Of a DNA stretch of 47,758 bases, positions 1,780 to 47,758 are shown in pieces. Positions within the stretch are counted from its first letter, which is position 1, and the number at the start of each line of letters is the position of its first letter. A program made the translations under genes and the position numbers. Origin of the DNA: Acidobacteriota bacterium. GTDB lineage: Bacteria; Acidobacteriota; Terriglobia; Bryobacterales; Bryobacteraceae. The stretch spans positions 1 through 47,758 of the forward strand of contig VFZX01000015.1 of the NCBI GenBank assembly GCA_016871015.1, in the 5' to 3' direction. The notes under the pieces are model-generated. The model did no database searches and was not told the DNA's origin. It was given only the letters and a program-made list of their open reading frames with translations.

Positions 1780-4266
1780 GTGACACCCGCGCGTTGGGAG
1801 CGAATCAGCGTCATCTTTGAGACGGCGGCCGACCTCACCGCTGGCTCCCGCCGTGCGTATCTCGACGGGGAATGCCGTGACGACCCGGATCTCCGCGCGG
1901 AAGTGGAGCGGATGCTCAATCATGCCAGTCCCGACACCGGACTGGCGCGGTCGGTGCGAGCCGCGGTGGAACGGATCGATCCGATGGCCGCGGTCGCGTC
2001 CCACGGCACGTTCGGGCCGTGGCGGGTGGTCGAGACCGTGGGTTCGGGTGGCATGGGCACGGTGTACAAAGTCGTGCGGGCCGACGGAACGTTTGACAAG
2101 TTGGCGGCCCTCAAACTGTTGCACTTGAATTCGGCTGAGACGCAGCAGCGGTTCCGCATGGAGCGCCAGATTCTGGCGCGGCTGGAGCATCCCAACATCG
2201 GGCGTCTGCTCGACGGCGGCGAGACCGAGTCCGGACATCCGTTCTTGGTGATGGAGTTCGTCGAGGGCGTGCCGCTTCCGGACTACGCCGAGTCGAGGAA
2301 CTTGGGGAAGACGGAGCGCTTGCGTCTGTTCCTACGTATCTGCGACGCGGTACAGTACCTGCACCAAAACCTGGTGATCCACCGGGACCTGAAACCAGGG
2401 GACATCCTGGTCACACCGGACGGCACGCCGAAACTGCTGGATTTCGGGATCGCCAAATTGCTCGACGGCGGCGTGATGCGGACCCAGACCGGCGCGTTCG
2501 CGCTCACGCCTCAGTACGCGAGTCCGGAACAGGTCCGCGGGCTGCCGGTGACGACAGCCACCGACGTCTATTCGCTCGGGGTGATCCTCTACGAGCTGTT
2601 GTCCGGGAAGCGGCCCTACGATGTGGCGTCGCTCGCGCTGGTAGAACTGGACCGGGTCATCTGCGAGTCCGAGCCTGCCAAGCCCAACCTTGGCGGCGAC
2701 CTCGACAACGTGCTGATGATGGCGCTTCGGAAGGAGGCGGCACGGCGCTACGCTTCGGTGGAGCAGTTCTCCCGCGACATCCGCCACATCCTTGCGGACG
2801 AGCCAGTGTCCGCCCGGCCTGACACGGTCCTGTACAGGACCAACAAGTTCGTTTGGCGCAACCGGCTCGCACTGGCGGCAGCGGCAGTGGTTGTTGCCTC
2901 GCTCAGCGCCGGAATCGTGGTATCGCGGCGGGAAGCTGCGTTGGCGAAGCGCCGGTTCGAACAGTCGCGCCAGTATGCCAACGCGATTCTGAACGACTTC
3001 TATCCGCGGATCCAGTCGCTGGTTGGCGCGACCGCGGCGAGGCAGGCACTGGTCGAGGCCACCAACCGGCACTTGCTGGAGCTGGCGAAGGATTCCGCCG
3101 GGGATCCTGAACTCGAGTTTGATCTCGCGAACGGCTTCCGGCTGCTGGGATCGACTTATGCCGGCGGAGACGTGGCGGGCACGGGGGACTTGCAACAAGC
3201 GAAACAGAACCTGCATCGCGCGCTCCAACTGGCGGCGTCGGCGGAGAAGGGTGGAGTGCCAAGGCGCAGAGTCCTTGCCGTGACCGGCTTTGCCCACATC
3301 GACCTGGGAGACGCATACGCCAAGACCGGAGAAGACGGGCTGGCCCGGAAGCATCTGCGCCAGGCGATCGTTGAAGGGAGTGAGTTGAACGACACCGCCA
3401 CGGTGACGTCGGCGCGCAACCGGGAAGGCGATCTGCTGTTGAAAGACGGACAGCTCCCGGAGGCGCTCAGCCTGTTCCGCCAGTCCGAGGCAGCCGCGCC
3501 GGCCCGAGTGCGAAGTGTAACCACCTGGCACCGGATCGTTCATGTCCTGCGCGACCAGGGCAACCACTCCGGAGCGCTCGATCTGGCGCGCCAGTGTGTC
3601 GCCGAGGGCCAGGCTCATCTGGCACGAAGGCCCGACTCCTTCCAGCGTCTGCACGCTCTCGTGGTGAGCCAGGCGCAGTACACCACTCTGCTGGCGGAGA
3701 CTCCGGCTCCCCGGGCCGCGATCCCGGCGGCGCGGGAGCTGGCGGTGTTGCTCAACCGGCTGGCAGAAGGCGAGCGGCATGGACCGATGTGGCCGGACGT
3801 GACGGGCTTTTTCGGGGAGTGGTTCTATCTTCATTTCCAGCGGCTGCCCCGGACCGAGCTGGAGCAGTTTGCGAGCCTGTTCGATCGCGCGTCTCAGTCG
3901 TTGGGCGGGCAACACCCAAACGCGTATCAGGCCCTCCACACCCGTCTTGATGGAGGCCATGCGCGAGTCCTGGCGGCGCTCGGCCGTGGCAGCGAGGCGG
4001 CTCCCTTACTGCGGCGCGCGGTGGACACAGCCCGGACTCTGGCTCAGGGGCCCGGATCTCACCTGGACGACCGCATCTGGCTGGCGATGCTGCTTTCCAA
4101 CGGCGAAGGAATCAAGATTCTGGAGACGGAGGCTTCGCGACGGCCCGGATTCGTGCGGCTTCGTTCGCTGGCCGCTGCCCTTACGCCAGTGCCTGGCGGG
4201 CCAGTTCCATCGGCGCTGGGACGGGATCCTGCGGTCCCTTCAGGTAGTACACGCACGCCGCGGTGA
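1780..4266 (+). CDS. Membrane Ser/Thr protein kinase (PknB-like) with C-terminal helical repeats
   Basis: Transmembrane eukaryotic-type kinase, 828 aa, starting at GTG one base after the aminotransferase stop. Residues 1-70 match the short N-terminal region often seen on acidobacterial kinases. The kinase domain spans about 82-345: glycine loop GSGGMGTVYK (88-97), ATP lysine K112, HRD base D203, and DFG at 221-223. The catalytic loop reads HRDLKPGDILV, so the metal-binding Asn expected five residues after the HRD Asp is Asp208. One membrane segment lies at about 362-384. The rest is alpha-helical and TPR-like and should be outside the membrane. The last 86 bases are antisense to the next gene, so the final 29 residues are low in recognisable structure. 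The call is firm; whether Asp208 permits full activity is open. Confidence 0.92.
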   Translation: MTPARWERISVIFETAADLTAGSRRAYLDGECRDDPDLRAEVERMLNHASPDTGLARSVRAAVERIDPMAAVASHGTFGPWRVVETVGSGGMGTVYKVVRADGTFDKLAALKLLHLNSAETQQRFRMERQILARLEHPNIGRLLDGGETESGHPFLVMEFVEGVPLPDYAESRNLGKTERLRLFLRICDAVQYLHQNLVIHRDLKPGDILVTPDGTPKLLDFGIAKLLDGGVMRTQTGAFALTPQYASPEQVRGLPVTTATDVYSLGVILYELLSGKRPYDVASLALVELDRVICESEPAKPNLGGDLDNVLMMALRKEAARRYASVEQFSRDIRHILADEPVSARPDTVLYRTNKFVWRNRLALAAAAVVVASLSAGIVVSRREAALAKRRFEQSRQYANAILNDFYPRIQSLVGATAARQALVEATNRHLLELAKDSAGDPELEFDLANGFRLLGSTYAGGDVAGTGDLQQAKQNLHRALQLAASAEKGGVPRRRVLAVTGFAHIDLGDAYAKTGEDGLARKHLRQAIVEGSELNDTATVTSARNREGDLLLKDGQLPEALSLFRQSEAAAPARVRSVTTWHRIVHVLRDQGNHSGALDLARQCVAEGQAHLARRPDSFQRLHALVVSQAQYTTLLAETPAPRAAIPAARELAVLLNRLAEGERHGPMWPDVTGFFGEWFYLHFQRLPRTELEQFASLFDRASQSLGGQHPNAYQALHTRLDGGHARVLAALGRGSEAAPLLRRAVDTARTLAQGPGSHLDDRIWLAMLLSNGEGIKILETEASRRPGFVRLRSLAAALTPVPGGPVPSALGRDPAVPSGSTRTPR

Positions 4267-5611
4267 GATGTGGCTGCCATCGTGGACTCACCAGGCGGAT
4301 GTCCTCAATGAGCGCGGCCAGGTACTTGTAGTAGTGCACTTCGTCCACCTTGGCGATGGACTGCCGCATGGCCGCGTTCAGGAAGGCAGTGCGGGCGTCG
4401 CCGTCCTGCGCCATCCGCATCGCGCAGGATGCTGCCTGGTCGAGATCGCCTGGCACACCGGCTAGCGTTTGCGCGGTGTCCGGCATCTTGCCCTCGATTG
4501 GACTCAGAGCGGTGATCGCGCGGTTCCGCAGTCCGTCCTTGCCCGCCGCCATCCACTCCCGGAACTGAGCGATCCAACCCGCTGCCTGGAGGAGCAGCAG
4601 ATACCGTGTCCGCGCGGACATCGAGGCGAACCAGGCGTGGTGGAGCGCATTGATGGCCGACACTGCGTGAATGCCGCCGATCACGGTGCTCCTCCCGGCA
4701 CGCATGCGCAGCTCGGCGGCGCTCAGGTGGATCGCATCCCACACCGATCCAGCCGTGGCCTGGCCTTTGACCAGGCGGGTGGCGAGATCCGCGCAGGCAT
4801 CGGCGTGCGGGGCGTCGCGCAGGACTTCGAGGATCGAACGCGCCGCGGAGTCATCGCCCTCGCGGTCCGCCCAAGTGTCTGGGAGCTTGGCGAACGTTTC
4901 CGCGACGCGCCGGCGGTTGGCGAAGTAGCATTGGTCTTCGAGCGCGAACCCGTTCATCGTCGACTTGGTTCCGAAGTCGAGCATCCCCAGTACAAGCGAC
5001 CGCAGCACCGGTTCGGCGTGCTCCCAGCCGATCGTCTGAAGAGTCCGGTGGGCGTTGGCGGCGAAGATCGCCTTGTGGCCGATGTTGCGGTAGTCGCGCG
5101 CTCCGTACTGCCAAAGCAGCTCGAACGCCTCGCCTGGAGAACGGTAACGCGCCACCGCCGCCGCGGCTCGCTCGGCCCGGTCCATGTCCCATGCCTCCAT
5201 GGCGGCTTCGAGGTCTCCGCTCGATCCGGCCGCGATCCCGCCCATCTGGTAGTCGCCCACGGCCGCCTTGCGGTCTCGCTCCTGGGCCGTCTTGAAACTG
5301 TCGAGCGCATAGAAAAGCGGAAGGCGCCGGACATCGGCGGGGGCCTCCAGTGTCAACGTGTGCGCCGCATGGATCACGAACACGCAATGCAACGCGAATC
5401 CCGGCGGGCGCGGGTTCACGTTCCGGATTCCGGCGAGGAACAGCGCCGCCATGAACTCGCGGTAGGAGATTCCGCTTCGCAGCGCCTCAGCCGCCATGGA
5501 AGCGCATTTCTCGCGCGGGGTGGACTCGATCTTGGCGATCAGCGGCTGCAGTCCCGCGCGGGCGCGCGACACGAGCAGGGGGGTGAGCAGGAGTTCGCGG
5601 CGCGTCAGCAT
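4181..5611 (-). CDS. Secreted protein of unknown function, partner of a TonB-dependent receptor
   Basis: A 476-aa protein that I cannot assign to a family. It begins MLTRRELLLTPLLVSRARA, a Tat-like or Sec signal with a cleavage-like Ala-x-Ala end. The body is mostly alpha-helical and contains His-rich patches (ALHCVFVIHAAHTL, GGIHAVSAINALHHAW, EVHYYKYLAAL) that could bind a metal or cofactor; that is a guess. Its start is two bases after the stop of the receptor gene, so it is co-transcribed with it and plausibly handles what the receptor imports. Its 3-prime end overlaps the kinase gene tail-to-tail by 86 bases. Codon use resembles the neighbours. Confidence 0.8.
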   Translation of the reverse strand: MLTRRELLLTPLLVSRARAGLQPLIAKIESTPREKCASMAAEALRSGISYREFMAALFLAGIRNVNPRPPGFALHCVFVIHAAHTLTLEAPADVRRLPLFYALDSFKTAQERDRKAAVGDYQMGGIAAGSSGDLEAAMEAWDMDRAERAAAAVARYRSPGEAFELLWQYGARDYRNIGHKAIFAANAHRTLQTIGWEHAEPVLRSLVLGMLDFGTKSTMNGFALEDQCYFANRRRVAETFAKLPDTWADREGDDSAARSILEVLRDAPHADACADLATRLVKGQATAGSVWDAIHLSAAELRMRAGRSTVIGGIHAVSAINALHHAWFASMSARTRYLLLLQAAGWIAQFREWMAAGKDGLRNRAITALSPIEGKMPDTAQTLAGVPGDLDQAASCAMRMAQDGDARTAFLNAAMRQSIAKVDEVHYYKYLAALIEDIRLVSPRWQPHLTAACVYYLKGPQDPVPAPMELARQALA

Positions 5612-44665: not shown

Positions 44666-47600
44666 TTGAACTTCGTTGCTAGCATCAATCCCAAGAGTCT
44701 TGGCCTTCTGGCACCAGATACGGCCGTGGATCTGTTTCGGGAGTTGTTATGGGCCGAGGCGAGCCGCGCCGGTATCGGCCCCGCACTGATCTCGGTTCCG
44801 AGCGCCATCACAGTCTCGGATGGTGGCGTCGATGCCGAGATAGCGAGCGTTTCCCCCGAGAAGGCGGGTGGCCTGCTCTCCTCTGGGGCAACCAGATACC
44901 AGATCAAGACGGGCGCGTTTTCGGCGGGAAATCAGTCCGAGATGAAGGATCTGTTCCTCAAGGAGAATCGCCGCGAATTCAAAGATAGAATACGCTCGTG
45001 CTTCGCAAATAACGGCACATTCGTCGTGGTGCTATTTGGTTCGGATACGCCCAACAGGACCGACGATGAGGCAGCCCGCGCTTGCCAGAAGTTCGTCGGA
45101 GAGATTCAGCCCGCATTCCGGGACTGCCCGATACGGGTCATCTCCCAGAATCAACTTGCCGGCTTTCTGAACCAGCACCCGCCCCTCGCCGGCAAGGCAG
45201 GACTGCGGACATTCCCGAAGTTGAGGCGGCATTCGCAATGGCCGCGGGAACTTGAATCGTTGCCTTCATTGCAGATCGGCAAGTCACAGGAGGGGTTCAT
45301 TGACCAGGTGAGGTCCGAGCTTCGCAATCCGCTGGCGAGGCATCTGTGCGTTTGGGGCGAGCCTGGGGTCGGAAAGACGCGCCTGCTCTGGGAAGCAACG
45401 GCGGTTGGGGACCTCTCATCCGCGGTCGCATACTTCGCATCGCCTAAAGCCCTAGATCAGAGCGGGATCGTCGATGAACTGTTGAACGACGACTCGAAGT
45501 CAGCGATCGTCGTCGTTGACGACTGCGATTCCCGCGACCGAGAGACGATCTGGCGGCACCTGAAGGGGCTTGGAACCAGGGTGCGCCTCATAACCGTCCA
45601 GCATGATCCGTGCGAGAGCTCCGGTACGACAGTAGCCCTGCAAACGCCCGAACTGGCCCACGCGCAGATTTCGGAAATCATCCATCAGCATGGCGTCGAG
45701 AAGAACGTCGCGGATCGTTTCGCCGAATACTGCGGGGGCTCCCCCCGCGTAGCCGATGTGGTCGGCTGGAATCTCCAGAACAGCCCCGACGACCTAACGC
45801 GGCCCTTGGATACCGGGAACGTTTGGAACCGCTTCATTGAGTGGCACGACTCGCCATCGAGTGATGCGGTCGTTCACCGGAAGCTTGTGCTGCAGTACCT
45901 CGCTCTCTTCAAGAAGTTCGGCTACGGGGAACCTTACCAGCACGAGGCGAAGGGCATTGCAGGGCACGTGGCGGCGGCGAACCCGGCGATCACCTGGGAG
46001 CGTTTCCAGGAGATCATCCTAGGGCTGCGGAGGCGCCGGATCCTTCAGGGCGAAACCACCCTCTACATCACGCCAAAGCTCCTTCACATAAAGCTCTGGT
46101 CAGACTGGTGGGAACTACACGGCCCGAGTCGCAACGTCGAGCATTTCCTCGGATCGATTCCCGACACGCTGCACGTGTGGTTCTACGACATGTTCGTGTA
46201 CGCCCACGGCTCCCGGACCATCAGCAAGACCGTACGGGCCATCCTGGACACCCAAGGCTCATTTTTCCGAGAAGGGCTTATCAAGACGGGAGTCGGTGCC
46301 AATTTTTTTTTGAGCTTGACGGAAGCCGACACCGAGGCGGCGCTCGACTTCCTCGAGGTGACGATCGGAAAAGAGAGCAGTGATGAACTTCGGGCCTTCA
46401 GGGATGGACGGCAAAGGATTGTCTGGGCGCTCGAGAAGATCGCGGTAGAGCGGGCGCTCTTCCAGCGCGCCGCGCGAGTGCTCCTGCGACTGGCCGAAAC
46501 CGAAAACGACCCCTCAATCGCGAACAACGCCACGGGAACCTTCGCGGCCCTGTTTTCGCTCGGGCCGGGCAAGACGGCACCCACGCAGGCACCGCCTGCC
46601 GAGCGCATGCCAGTGCTAGAGGAGGCTATTACCTCAACGGACCCCGAGACGCGCGCCGTCGCGTTGCGAGCCTGCGACGCCGCGTTGAAATCGCATTCAT
46701 TCGACCGCATCTGTGGTGCGGAGCGGCGCGGACTCAAGGGCCTTGAACTCTGGTTCCCGAAGACCTACAGAGAGTGGTTTGACGCGTATCGTGCGGTATG
46801 GCGGCTTCTGAGCTCAGAATTGGAGCGTCTTCCGGAGGATCAGCGCGCGGAAGCCGTGCGTGTTCTTCTCACGCGAGCCTTCGACCTGGTGCAGACGGAG
46901 AATTTGGCCGACCTCGTCACGTCGACCGTACGGAAGGTCATTGAGATACCCGGCGTTCCGCGGAAGGCTGTGCTAGAAACGGCCCTAGATGTCTTGGATC
47001 GGCTGACGTCCCTACCCGAACCGATGAGGTCGCGGTGGGAGGACATCCGGTTGACAGCGGCTGGCGGCGATTCACTCCGAGGACGGCTGAGGTCGCAGCT
47101 TGTGCTCCCGGCATGGCGATTTGCGCGGGACTCCGGATTGACTACCGACGCGTGGCGCTCACTTGCCGAGGAGTCGATAGCGAGTCCGAATGAGTTCCTC
47201 GAAGAGCTTACCTGGCTGACAAGCAACGAACCCGAAAGCGCCGGGCCATTCGGCTACGAGGTGGGTCGGCTTGATCGCGGATTCAACTTTGAGACACCGA
47301 TCATTGCAGCGGTCGCAGCAGCAGGAGGCGAGGCAGCCAACACGACGCTTTTAGGAGGTTATCTGCGGGCCGTGCACGAGTCAGATCCTTCGCACTGGCT
47401 CTCGACGGTTAAGGCGTTGAGCGAGCGTCCAGAGGCGGTGCGCTTTTTCCCCAGCGTAATCGTGCAATCCGGCCTCACTGACGAGTCCGCTGAGATTCTG
47501 GCCGGCCTCATCCAAAGAGATGTTATGCCTGGACACTATCTCCAGGGGTTCATCTTCAGAGGCGAAATCAGAAAACTGTCCCCCAACAAATTCGCTTCAT

Positions 47601-47758
47601 GGATTTCGCTGGTGCTCTCCCAGAATAACCAACAGGCAGCCGTCGCAGCCCTCCAACTGCTACACCATTACGTGAGACCAGATCGGCTCGCCGAGGTGCC
47701 GCCAGATCTGATCGAGGCGGTGCTCCTAAGCGATGCACTCTTCGAGGAGGAACGCAAG
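44666..47758 (+). CDS. Large predicted nuclease/STAND-like NTPase, putative defence protein, C-terminus cut by window edge
   Basis: An uninterrupted frame of 1031 codons, still open at the window end. The upstream in-frame stop is at 44630-44632 and the only usual start after it is the TTG at 44666 (MNFVASINPKSLGLL). Residues 1-180 look like a PD-(D/E)xK nuclease: VSDGGVDAEI (D52, D56), then YQIKTG (Q79, K81), with TFVVVLFG as a later strand. A P-loop NTPase follows: Walker A GEPGVGKT (231-238) and Walker B AIVVVDDCDS (D285, D286). The rest, from about 400, is mostly helical, without a recognised repeat family, and may sense a target. Nuclease-STAND fusions occur among Avs-type antiphage proteins, where target binding triggers DNA cleavage; function here is inferred. 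Codons ATA, CTA, TTA and AGA are more frequent than in neighbouring genes, suggesting acquisition. Confidence 0.75.
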   Translation, partial: MNFVASINPKSLGLLAPDTAVDLFRELLWAEASRAGIGPALISVPSAITVSDGGVDAEIASVSPEKAGGLLSSGATRYQIKTGAFSAGNQSEMKDLFLKENRREFKDRIRSCFANNGTFVVVLFGSDTPNRTDDEAARACQKFVGEIQPAFRDCPIRVISQNQLAGFLNQHPPLAGKAGLRTFPKLRRHSQWPRELESLPSLQIGKSQEGFIDQVRSELRNPLARHLCVWGEPGVGKTRLLWEATAVGDLSSAVAYFASPKALDQSGIVDELLNDDSKSAIVVVDDCDSRDRETIWRHLKGLGTRVRLITVQHDPCESSGTTVALQTPELAHAQISEIIHQHGVEKNVADRFAEYCGGSPRVADVVGWNLQNSPDDLTRPLDTGNVWNRFIEWHDSPSSDAVVHRKLVLQYLALFKKFGYGEPYQHEAKGIAGHVAAANPAITWERFQEIILGLRRRRILQGETTLYITPKLLHIKLWSDWWELHGPSRNVEHFLGSIPDTLHVWFYDMFVYAHGSRTISKTVRAILDTQGSFFREGLIKTGVGANFFLSLTEADTEAALDFLEVTIGKESSDELRAFRDGRQRIVWALEKIAVERALFQRAARVLLRLAETENDPSIANNATGTFAALFSLGPGKTAPTQAPPAERMPVLEEAITSTDPETRAVALRACDAALKSHSFDRICGAERRGLKGLELWFPKTYREWFDAYRAVWRLLSSELERLPEDQRAEAVRVLLTRAFDLVQTENLADLVTSTVRKVIEIPGVPRKAVLETALDVLDRLTSLPEPMRSRWEDIRLTAAGGDSLRGRLRSQLVLPAWRFARDSGLTTDAWRSLAEESIASPNEFLEELTWLTSNEPESAGPFGYEVGRLDRGFNFETPIIAAVAAAGGEAANTTLLGGYLRAVHESDPSHWLSTVKALSERPEAVRFFPSVIVQSGLTDESAEILAGLIQRDVMPGHYLQGFIFRGEIRKLSPNKFASWISLVLSQNNQQAAVAALQLLHHYVRPDRLAEVPPDLIEAVLLSDALFEEERK
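46303..46311 (+). repeat. T9 homopolymer inside the nuclease-NTPase frame
   Basis: Nine T residues encode AAT TTT TTT TTG (N-F-F-L) in frame. Loss of one T creates TGA at once; gain of one T leads to a stop about 26 codons on, at 46381-46383. It is striking in GC-rich DNA and could be a slippage site or a sequencing risk. Confidence 0.7.

Follow-up and report, generated by a model that had tools for sequence, protein, structure and literature searches.

What does the long reading frame at the 3′ end of this Acidobacteriota contig encode, and does its product belong to antiphage defence? The window, that is, the whole stretch of 47,758 nucleotides analysed here, is the entire contig C15 of the source genome (G000; 8.66 Mb in 720 contigs). 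An open reading frame of 1031 codons with a TTG start occupies positions 44666..47758 on the plus strand, and no stop is reached up to the 3′ end of the window. An earlier sequence-only reading had described a single frame of more than 1031 codons and had proposed a candidate new antiphage protein with the order nuclease, STAND NTPase and C-terminal sensor.

The frame was borne out, and the gene, whose completion that reading had called for, was completed across a contig overlap. The last 126 bases of the window (47633..47758, plus strand) are identical to positions 4507..4382 on the minus strand of contig C522 (4509 bases); past the overlap two bases remain, one of them mismatched. On C522 the frame runs for 268 codons, of which the overlap contains 42, and closes with a stop that ends at base 3701 (minus strand). 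Joining C15 and C522 keeps the frame for 226 more codons and gives a protein of 1257 aa, with the 5′ 1031 codons in the window and the remaining 226 on the minus strand of C522. Taken by itself, the part on C522 fits the family profile at its C-terminal end (E 2.1e-32 with the six-protein profile, 2.4e-48 with the 21-protein profile). Residues 4-1254 of the joined protein align with a 1264-aa Helarchaeota protein at 36% identity, and W1148, in the C522-encoded part, is tryptophan in 36/36 sequences. The profile match, the end-to-end alignment and the conservation of W1148 support the join. The frame at 44666..47758 belongs to a genuine gene that the contig end interrupts. A chimera or a pseudogene was considered and is countered by the C522 link and the end-to-end homology.

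The motifs were analysed in an alignment of 37 relatives, from which a fragment (L052), a gene in two ORFs (L057) and the weaker loci L030-L033 were omitted; two rows (L042, L049) have no nuclease part, leaving 35 sequences for the nuclease columns, and the ATPase part of L049 aligns poorly. A PD-(D/E)xK-like core had been proposed at D52/D56 and Q79-x-K81. These residue numbers are correct, and D52, G54 and D56 of the DGGVD motif (44819..44833, plus strand), together with Q79 and K81 of the QxK motif (44900..44908, plus strand), are identical in 35/35 sequences covering them. A glutamate follows QxK in 34/35 sequences; the window copy alone has L96 at this place, with D95 adjoining, and this may be an alignment slip or a real change.

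For the P-loop NTPase, the earlier assignment of K237 and D285/D286 held for K237 and D285. G231, G234, G236 and K237 of the Walker A motif region (GEPGVGKT, 45356..45379, plus strand) and D285 of Walker B (VVVDD, 45509..45523, plus strand) are kept in 36/37 sequences, while D286 is present in the window protein but its column falls below the 85% cut-off of the conservation listing. The alignment also shows a GSPR motif (residues 358-361; 45737..45748, plus strand) with G358 kept in 35/37 sequences, at the place of the GxP motif of STAND proteins. Identity of the window protein to eight near relatives is 30% over residues 1-190, 36% over 191-400, 43% over 401-700 and 21-27% from 701 on. Residues 701-1257 are therefore the least conserved part, which fits what a sensor would show.

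Structure prediction supported an N-terminal PD-(D/E)xK-like nuclease domain at residues ~1-190 (44666..45235, plus strand). The AlphaFold model of residues 1-205, built with 19 sequences (pLDDT 76.4, pTM 0.73), has a helix, strands beside DGGxD and at QxK, two helices and a strand. Foldseek found no significant match with this model, the best being Mus81-Eme1 (E 0.12). VIA-align over the Foldseek candidates placed Avs4 residues 2-175 first (Z 7.7, rmsd 3.6, 141 aligned) with MspJI alongside (Z 7.7, rmsd 4.3, 143 aligned), all Z values for this model being below 8, a level that the tool's note calls common. The top 19 rows, which include Avs4, MspJI, Can2, FokI, BspD6I, VC1899 and EcoT38I, are PD-(D/E)xK nucleases; AspBHI is also near the model. 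A Z below 8 is insufficient alone, but together with the invariant motif these rows support the nuclease fold well.

The second model, of residues 190-1031 (20 sequences; pLDDT 84.0, pTM 0.65), suggested a STAND-type NTPase domain at residues ~205-400 (45278..45865, plus strand; also marked by the Walker motifs). The top nine VIA-align rows are NRC4, NRC2, NRC3, Apaf-1, a plant NLR resistosome, Sr35 and Dark chains (Z 14.0-12.4; rmsd 3.1-9.9), led by the NRC4 resistosome (Z 14.0, rmsd 9.5, 272 aligned), with Apaf-1 at Z 12.9 (rmsd 7.0, 288 aligned); several of these STAND rows have an rmsd above 9, and Z 14 is, by the tool's note, a typical best value for mostly helical models. Below them come Cdc6 (Z 12.3) and then other ORC, RFC and NLR chains; the ORC/Cdc6 and RFC ATPases lie within ~2-3 Z of the top. 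Foldseek with the same model matched SAMD9, ORC, plant NLRs and Avs3 (rank 11, E 1.1e-4), and a maltose-system regulator complex stands at rank 18. Weak Pfam signals in the family agree in kind, with AAA_16 in 8/21 members and NB-ARC in 1/21.

Beyond the ATPase every listed element of the model is helical. We assign a helical-repeat C-terminal region, the candidate sensor, to 46163..47758 (plus strand), continuing on C522, from the model and the low conservation from residue 701. A PP2A entry is a tentative match for the helical repeats (Z 11.1, rmsd 8.7, 425 aligned). The models agree with both folds named in the sequence-only reading, and motifs, models and helical repeats together support an Avs-like predicted order of nuclease, STAND NTPase and candidate sensor.

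Sequence searches related the protein to PD-λ-4. The PADLOC PD-Lambda-4_A model matches residues 23-684 (E 4e-25, 85.6 bits), and at E <= 10 the PADLOC scan of the window protein gave PD-Lambda-4_A models only and no Avs, in a library that we assume contains Avs models. Searches of Pfam, NCBIfam and PDB sequences with the window protein gave nothing above cut-off, and at E <= 10 neither the window protein nor the family profile found an Avs chain in PDB, the profile giving three chance-level rows only. An NCBIfam Hda match (E 1.4e-06; 28.1 bits, far under the model's cut-off of 194.8) was read as generic AAA+ similarity. In hhalign, the 21-protein family aligned with five PD-Lambda-4_A proteins at probability 100 (E 5.3e-70, 1205 columns). 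One of these five, from E. coli, matches the PD-Lambda-4_A model along its whole length of 1283 positions with 2524 bits, and in E. coli EC71 the 2524-bit A gene directly precedes PD-Lambda-4_B. With an Enterobacter relative as query, the gene type was matched in 175/5426 E. coli genomes, in none of them with a query coverage beyond 80%. A tree of 37 proteins, rooted at the midpoint and containing five long end branches and 13 rows of odd letter make-up, separates 26 rows with the window protein from 11 rows with the E. coli type (support 100/100). The protein had been offered as a candidate new one; what stands of this is that it matches no named Avs subtype by sequence (PADLOC scan and PDB chains, E <= 10), and it does have kin, as a distant full-length relative of PD-Lambda-4_A.

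PD-Lambda-4_B (PDLC03992) was matched in 0/34 genomes or records, the own genome included, the plasmid alone being searched for ten plasmids. Four of the 34 (G202 and three plasmids) carry closer relatives of A, likewise with no B match, and so B-lessness alone does not set the window branch apart. A control E. coli genome matches PD-Lambda-4_B and PD-Lambda-4_A matches 0/14 controls, indicating that B-like genes also exist apart from A. These profile searches make the window protein distant kin of PD-λ-4 A and not part of a two-gene PD-λ-4 system, and its branch, as placed by the tree, is sister to the PD-λ-4 A branch with no B partner. A two-gene system cut by the contig end was rejected, B being unmatched in the whole genome.

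Two observations were made on the PD-λ-4 side. In E. coli EC71 (L064:12898-13810), two overlapping ORFs each match a part of the B model (positions 1-245 and 245-303), and the gene may be frameshifted or naturally split. In G202 (L022:3536-7771), the PD-Lambda-4_A gene adjoins one for a 1411-aa protein whose N-terminus resembles LmuA/DUF4297 (E 4.9e-8).

PD-λ-4 came from phage selection with the E. coli pangenome (Vassallo et al. 2022, PMC9519451), the term 'lambda-4' being absent from that paper's main text. In a review passage PD-λ-4 is placed solely under 'P-loop NTPase' (PMC10952713). No description of a nuclease-STAND architecture for PD-λ-4 was found in the accessible open-licence literature, which misses most subscription papers.

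The family is patchy. A protein search matched 5/297 genomes of the phylum (own included) and the PADLOC model 6/297; the six-protein profile matched 10/396 phylum genomes and the 21-protein profile 10/399 genomes of the class, both counts including the source genome. Among named genomes, 21 loci were detected at 24-36% identity, in groups that include Geobacteraceae, Desulfobulbaceae, Nitrospirae, Gamma- and Betaproteobacteria, Chitinophaga and a Helarchaeota MAG. The family is thus found in Bacteria and Archaea, and the nearest relative is the Helarchaeota MAG protein (36%), in agreement with the tree. Matches also lie on twenty plasmid records, with a query coverage of at least 80% in 7, haloarchaeal and cyanobacterial plasmids included. 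Phage records gave no relative, and neither did viral contigs when searched with short peptide patterns. A Rubrivivax MAG (L048) and Xenophilus (L046) have 4233 bases in common at 96%, comprising the gene plus <300 bases on each side, with no further shared stretch at E <= 1e-20. A gene that alone is common to two genera fits a mobile, self-sufficient lone gene. In Haloarcula marina (L057:9941-13718) the annotation divides the family gene into two overlapping ORFs, with the break after Walker B, which may reflect a frameshift or a natural two-chain form.

The neighbours in the own genome (8 window ORFs and 2 C522 ORFs scanned) are ordinary. Upstream in the window are genes for an outer-membrane beta-barrel protein, HlyD and an ABC transporter, among others, and downstream on C522 are DUF1592-type and DUF1552 genes. 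The downstream search for defence genes that had been proposed had 3.7 kb visible on the 3′ side and met ordinary genes there, so the defence context rests on relatives only.

Defence genes were found beside some relatives, and many other neighbours are unmatched. At L041 the order is HsdM, a CBASS set (SAVED-HNH effector, cyclase, E2), HsdS, the relative, a 244-aa ORF and HsdR; at L035 it is an HsdR part, DUF4238, HsdM, HsdS and the relative. The start of the relative overlaps the hsdS stop in both (ATGA in L035; a single shared base, TAATG, in L041), and L043, a near-copy of L041, has identical spacing by coordinates. Other relatives lie near SspC (L060) or an Argonaute-associated REase (L058), or adjoin a PD-Lambda-2_B-like gene (L037). 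Thirty neighbour proteins were scanned singly with PADLOC; being hand-picked and with no control set, they are examples and not rates, and 14/30 had no PADLOC match (2/10, 7/10 and 5/10 by batch). In all, 164 neighbour ORFs were called at 20 loci as simple longest ORFs, some surely spurious, and 80 of them (10 loci) were scanned by tally, covering the best 25 of 389 and the best 25 of 107 families.

Two further features of these loci were observed. A PDC-S11 candidate-defence gene (E 1.3e-153) lies at L035:9330-10409, 18 bases after the family gene. L041 and L043, which come from MAGs of different assigned phyla, are 98.8% identical over 10.4 kb but do not align across the CBASS effector region and portions of hsdS. 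This looks like swapping of effector and specificity domains about an otherwise unchanged core, or may stem from misbinning.

Taken together, the PADLOC match, the hhalign result, the invariant residues, the models, the patchy and plasmid-borne spread and the defence neighbours of relatives suggest, with a probability of about 0.8, that the gene encodes a one-gene antiphage protein of Avs/NLR layout, with an Mrr-like PD-(D/E)xK nuclease, a STAND ATPase switch and a long helical-repeat sensor. The antiphage role suggested at the outset is likewise supported as likely by PD-Lambda-4_A homology and the defence context of relatives. By comparison with Avs1-Avs4, the likeliest order of events would start with binding of a conserved phage protein by the C-terminal repeats; the ATPase module would then change its nucleotide state and oligomerise, and the clustered nuclease domains would cut DNA, which would stop phage growth and probably kill the infected cell.

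The same nuclease could instead belong to an NTP-dependent restriction enzyme whose repeats read foreign or modified DNA directly, with no phage protein sensed. The nearness of the nuclease model to MspJI, FokI and AspBHI and the relatives inside type I restriction loci, overlapping hsdS, agree with such an enzyme, and motifs and fold by themselves cannot separate sensing from restriction. We consider it improbable, because the first matches of the ATPase model are NLR-type STAND domains, a Pfam search of 21 members (E <= 0.01) gave no domain known to read DNA, and the overall order equals that of Avs. The hsdS overlaps at loci with HsdM and HsdR would also be expected of a guard of type I restriction-modification that fires once the restriction complex is inhibited or lost. 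Such a guard is very unlikely here: the source genome has no N6_Mtase (PF02384) match, whereas 13/14 control genomes have one; N6_Mtase and Methylase_S each account for 2/80 neighbour proteins at 10 loci; and two genera have loci with just this gene in common.

The ordinary neighbours in the own genome and the Foldseek match to the maltose-system regulator complex would suit a non-defence, MalT-like STAND regulator retaining a nuclease-like domain. We give this little credence, as the nuclease residues are the same in 35/35 sequences, relatives occur on plasmids and in defence loci, and the protein is homologous to one from a phage-selected system (PMC9519451).

On this evidence PD-λ-4 A and the sister branch have a predicted nuclease-STAND-sensor layout, from which a mode of action and the residues worth mutating can be predicted for each. 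The Avs-like pattern-recognition proteins also gain a branch seemingly complete in one gene, mobile, and present on haloarchaeal plasmids and in a Helarchaeota MAG. A broader proposal, tentative and in our view rather unlikely as a whole, is that this is an Avs-like lineage of its own in Bacteria and Archaea (including the Helarchaeota MAG), carried as a single mobile gene, that PD-λ-4 is thereby an NLR-type nuclease system, and that in some hosts type I restriction operons have incorporated the gene as a backup that fires when restriction is blocked.

The window protein is predicted to have the same domain order as Avs1-Avs4, whose nucleases are described as cutting phage and host genomes once terminase or portal is recognised (PMC12931631; PMC12724215). 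An N-terminal nuclease effector and a central STAND NTPase are indicated by motif and predicted fold, with ORC/RFC rows close behind for the latter, and the C-terminal repeat sensor of Avs proteins may have a counterpart in the predicted helical repeats. Avs4 tops VIA-align for the nuclease model and Avs3 was found by Foldseek with residues 190-1031, but the protein has no sequence match at E <= 10 to PDB Avs chains or to PADLOC models other than PD-Lambda-4_A, and it is shorter than Avs4 (1257 aa versus 1534 residues of the matched chain). With the eukaryotic STAND/NLR proteins (NRC resistosomes, Apaf-1, Dark) the ATPase shares a predicted fold (Z 14.0-12.4) and a GSPR at the GxP position, whereas the window protein has a nuclease where they have a signalling domain, and helical repeats of uncertain type where they have LRR or WD40. 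Compared with the two-gene PD-λ-4 system, A homology is found and an adjacent B is not. The window protein is only ~12-21% identical to PD-λ-4 A by region and lies on the opposite side of the 100/100 branch, but it is homologous over its full length, similar in size (1257 versus 1283 aa), and carries DGGxD, QxK and Walker A/B at the same positions.
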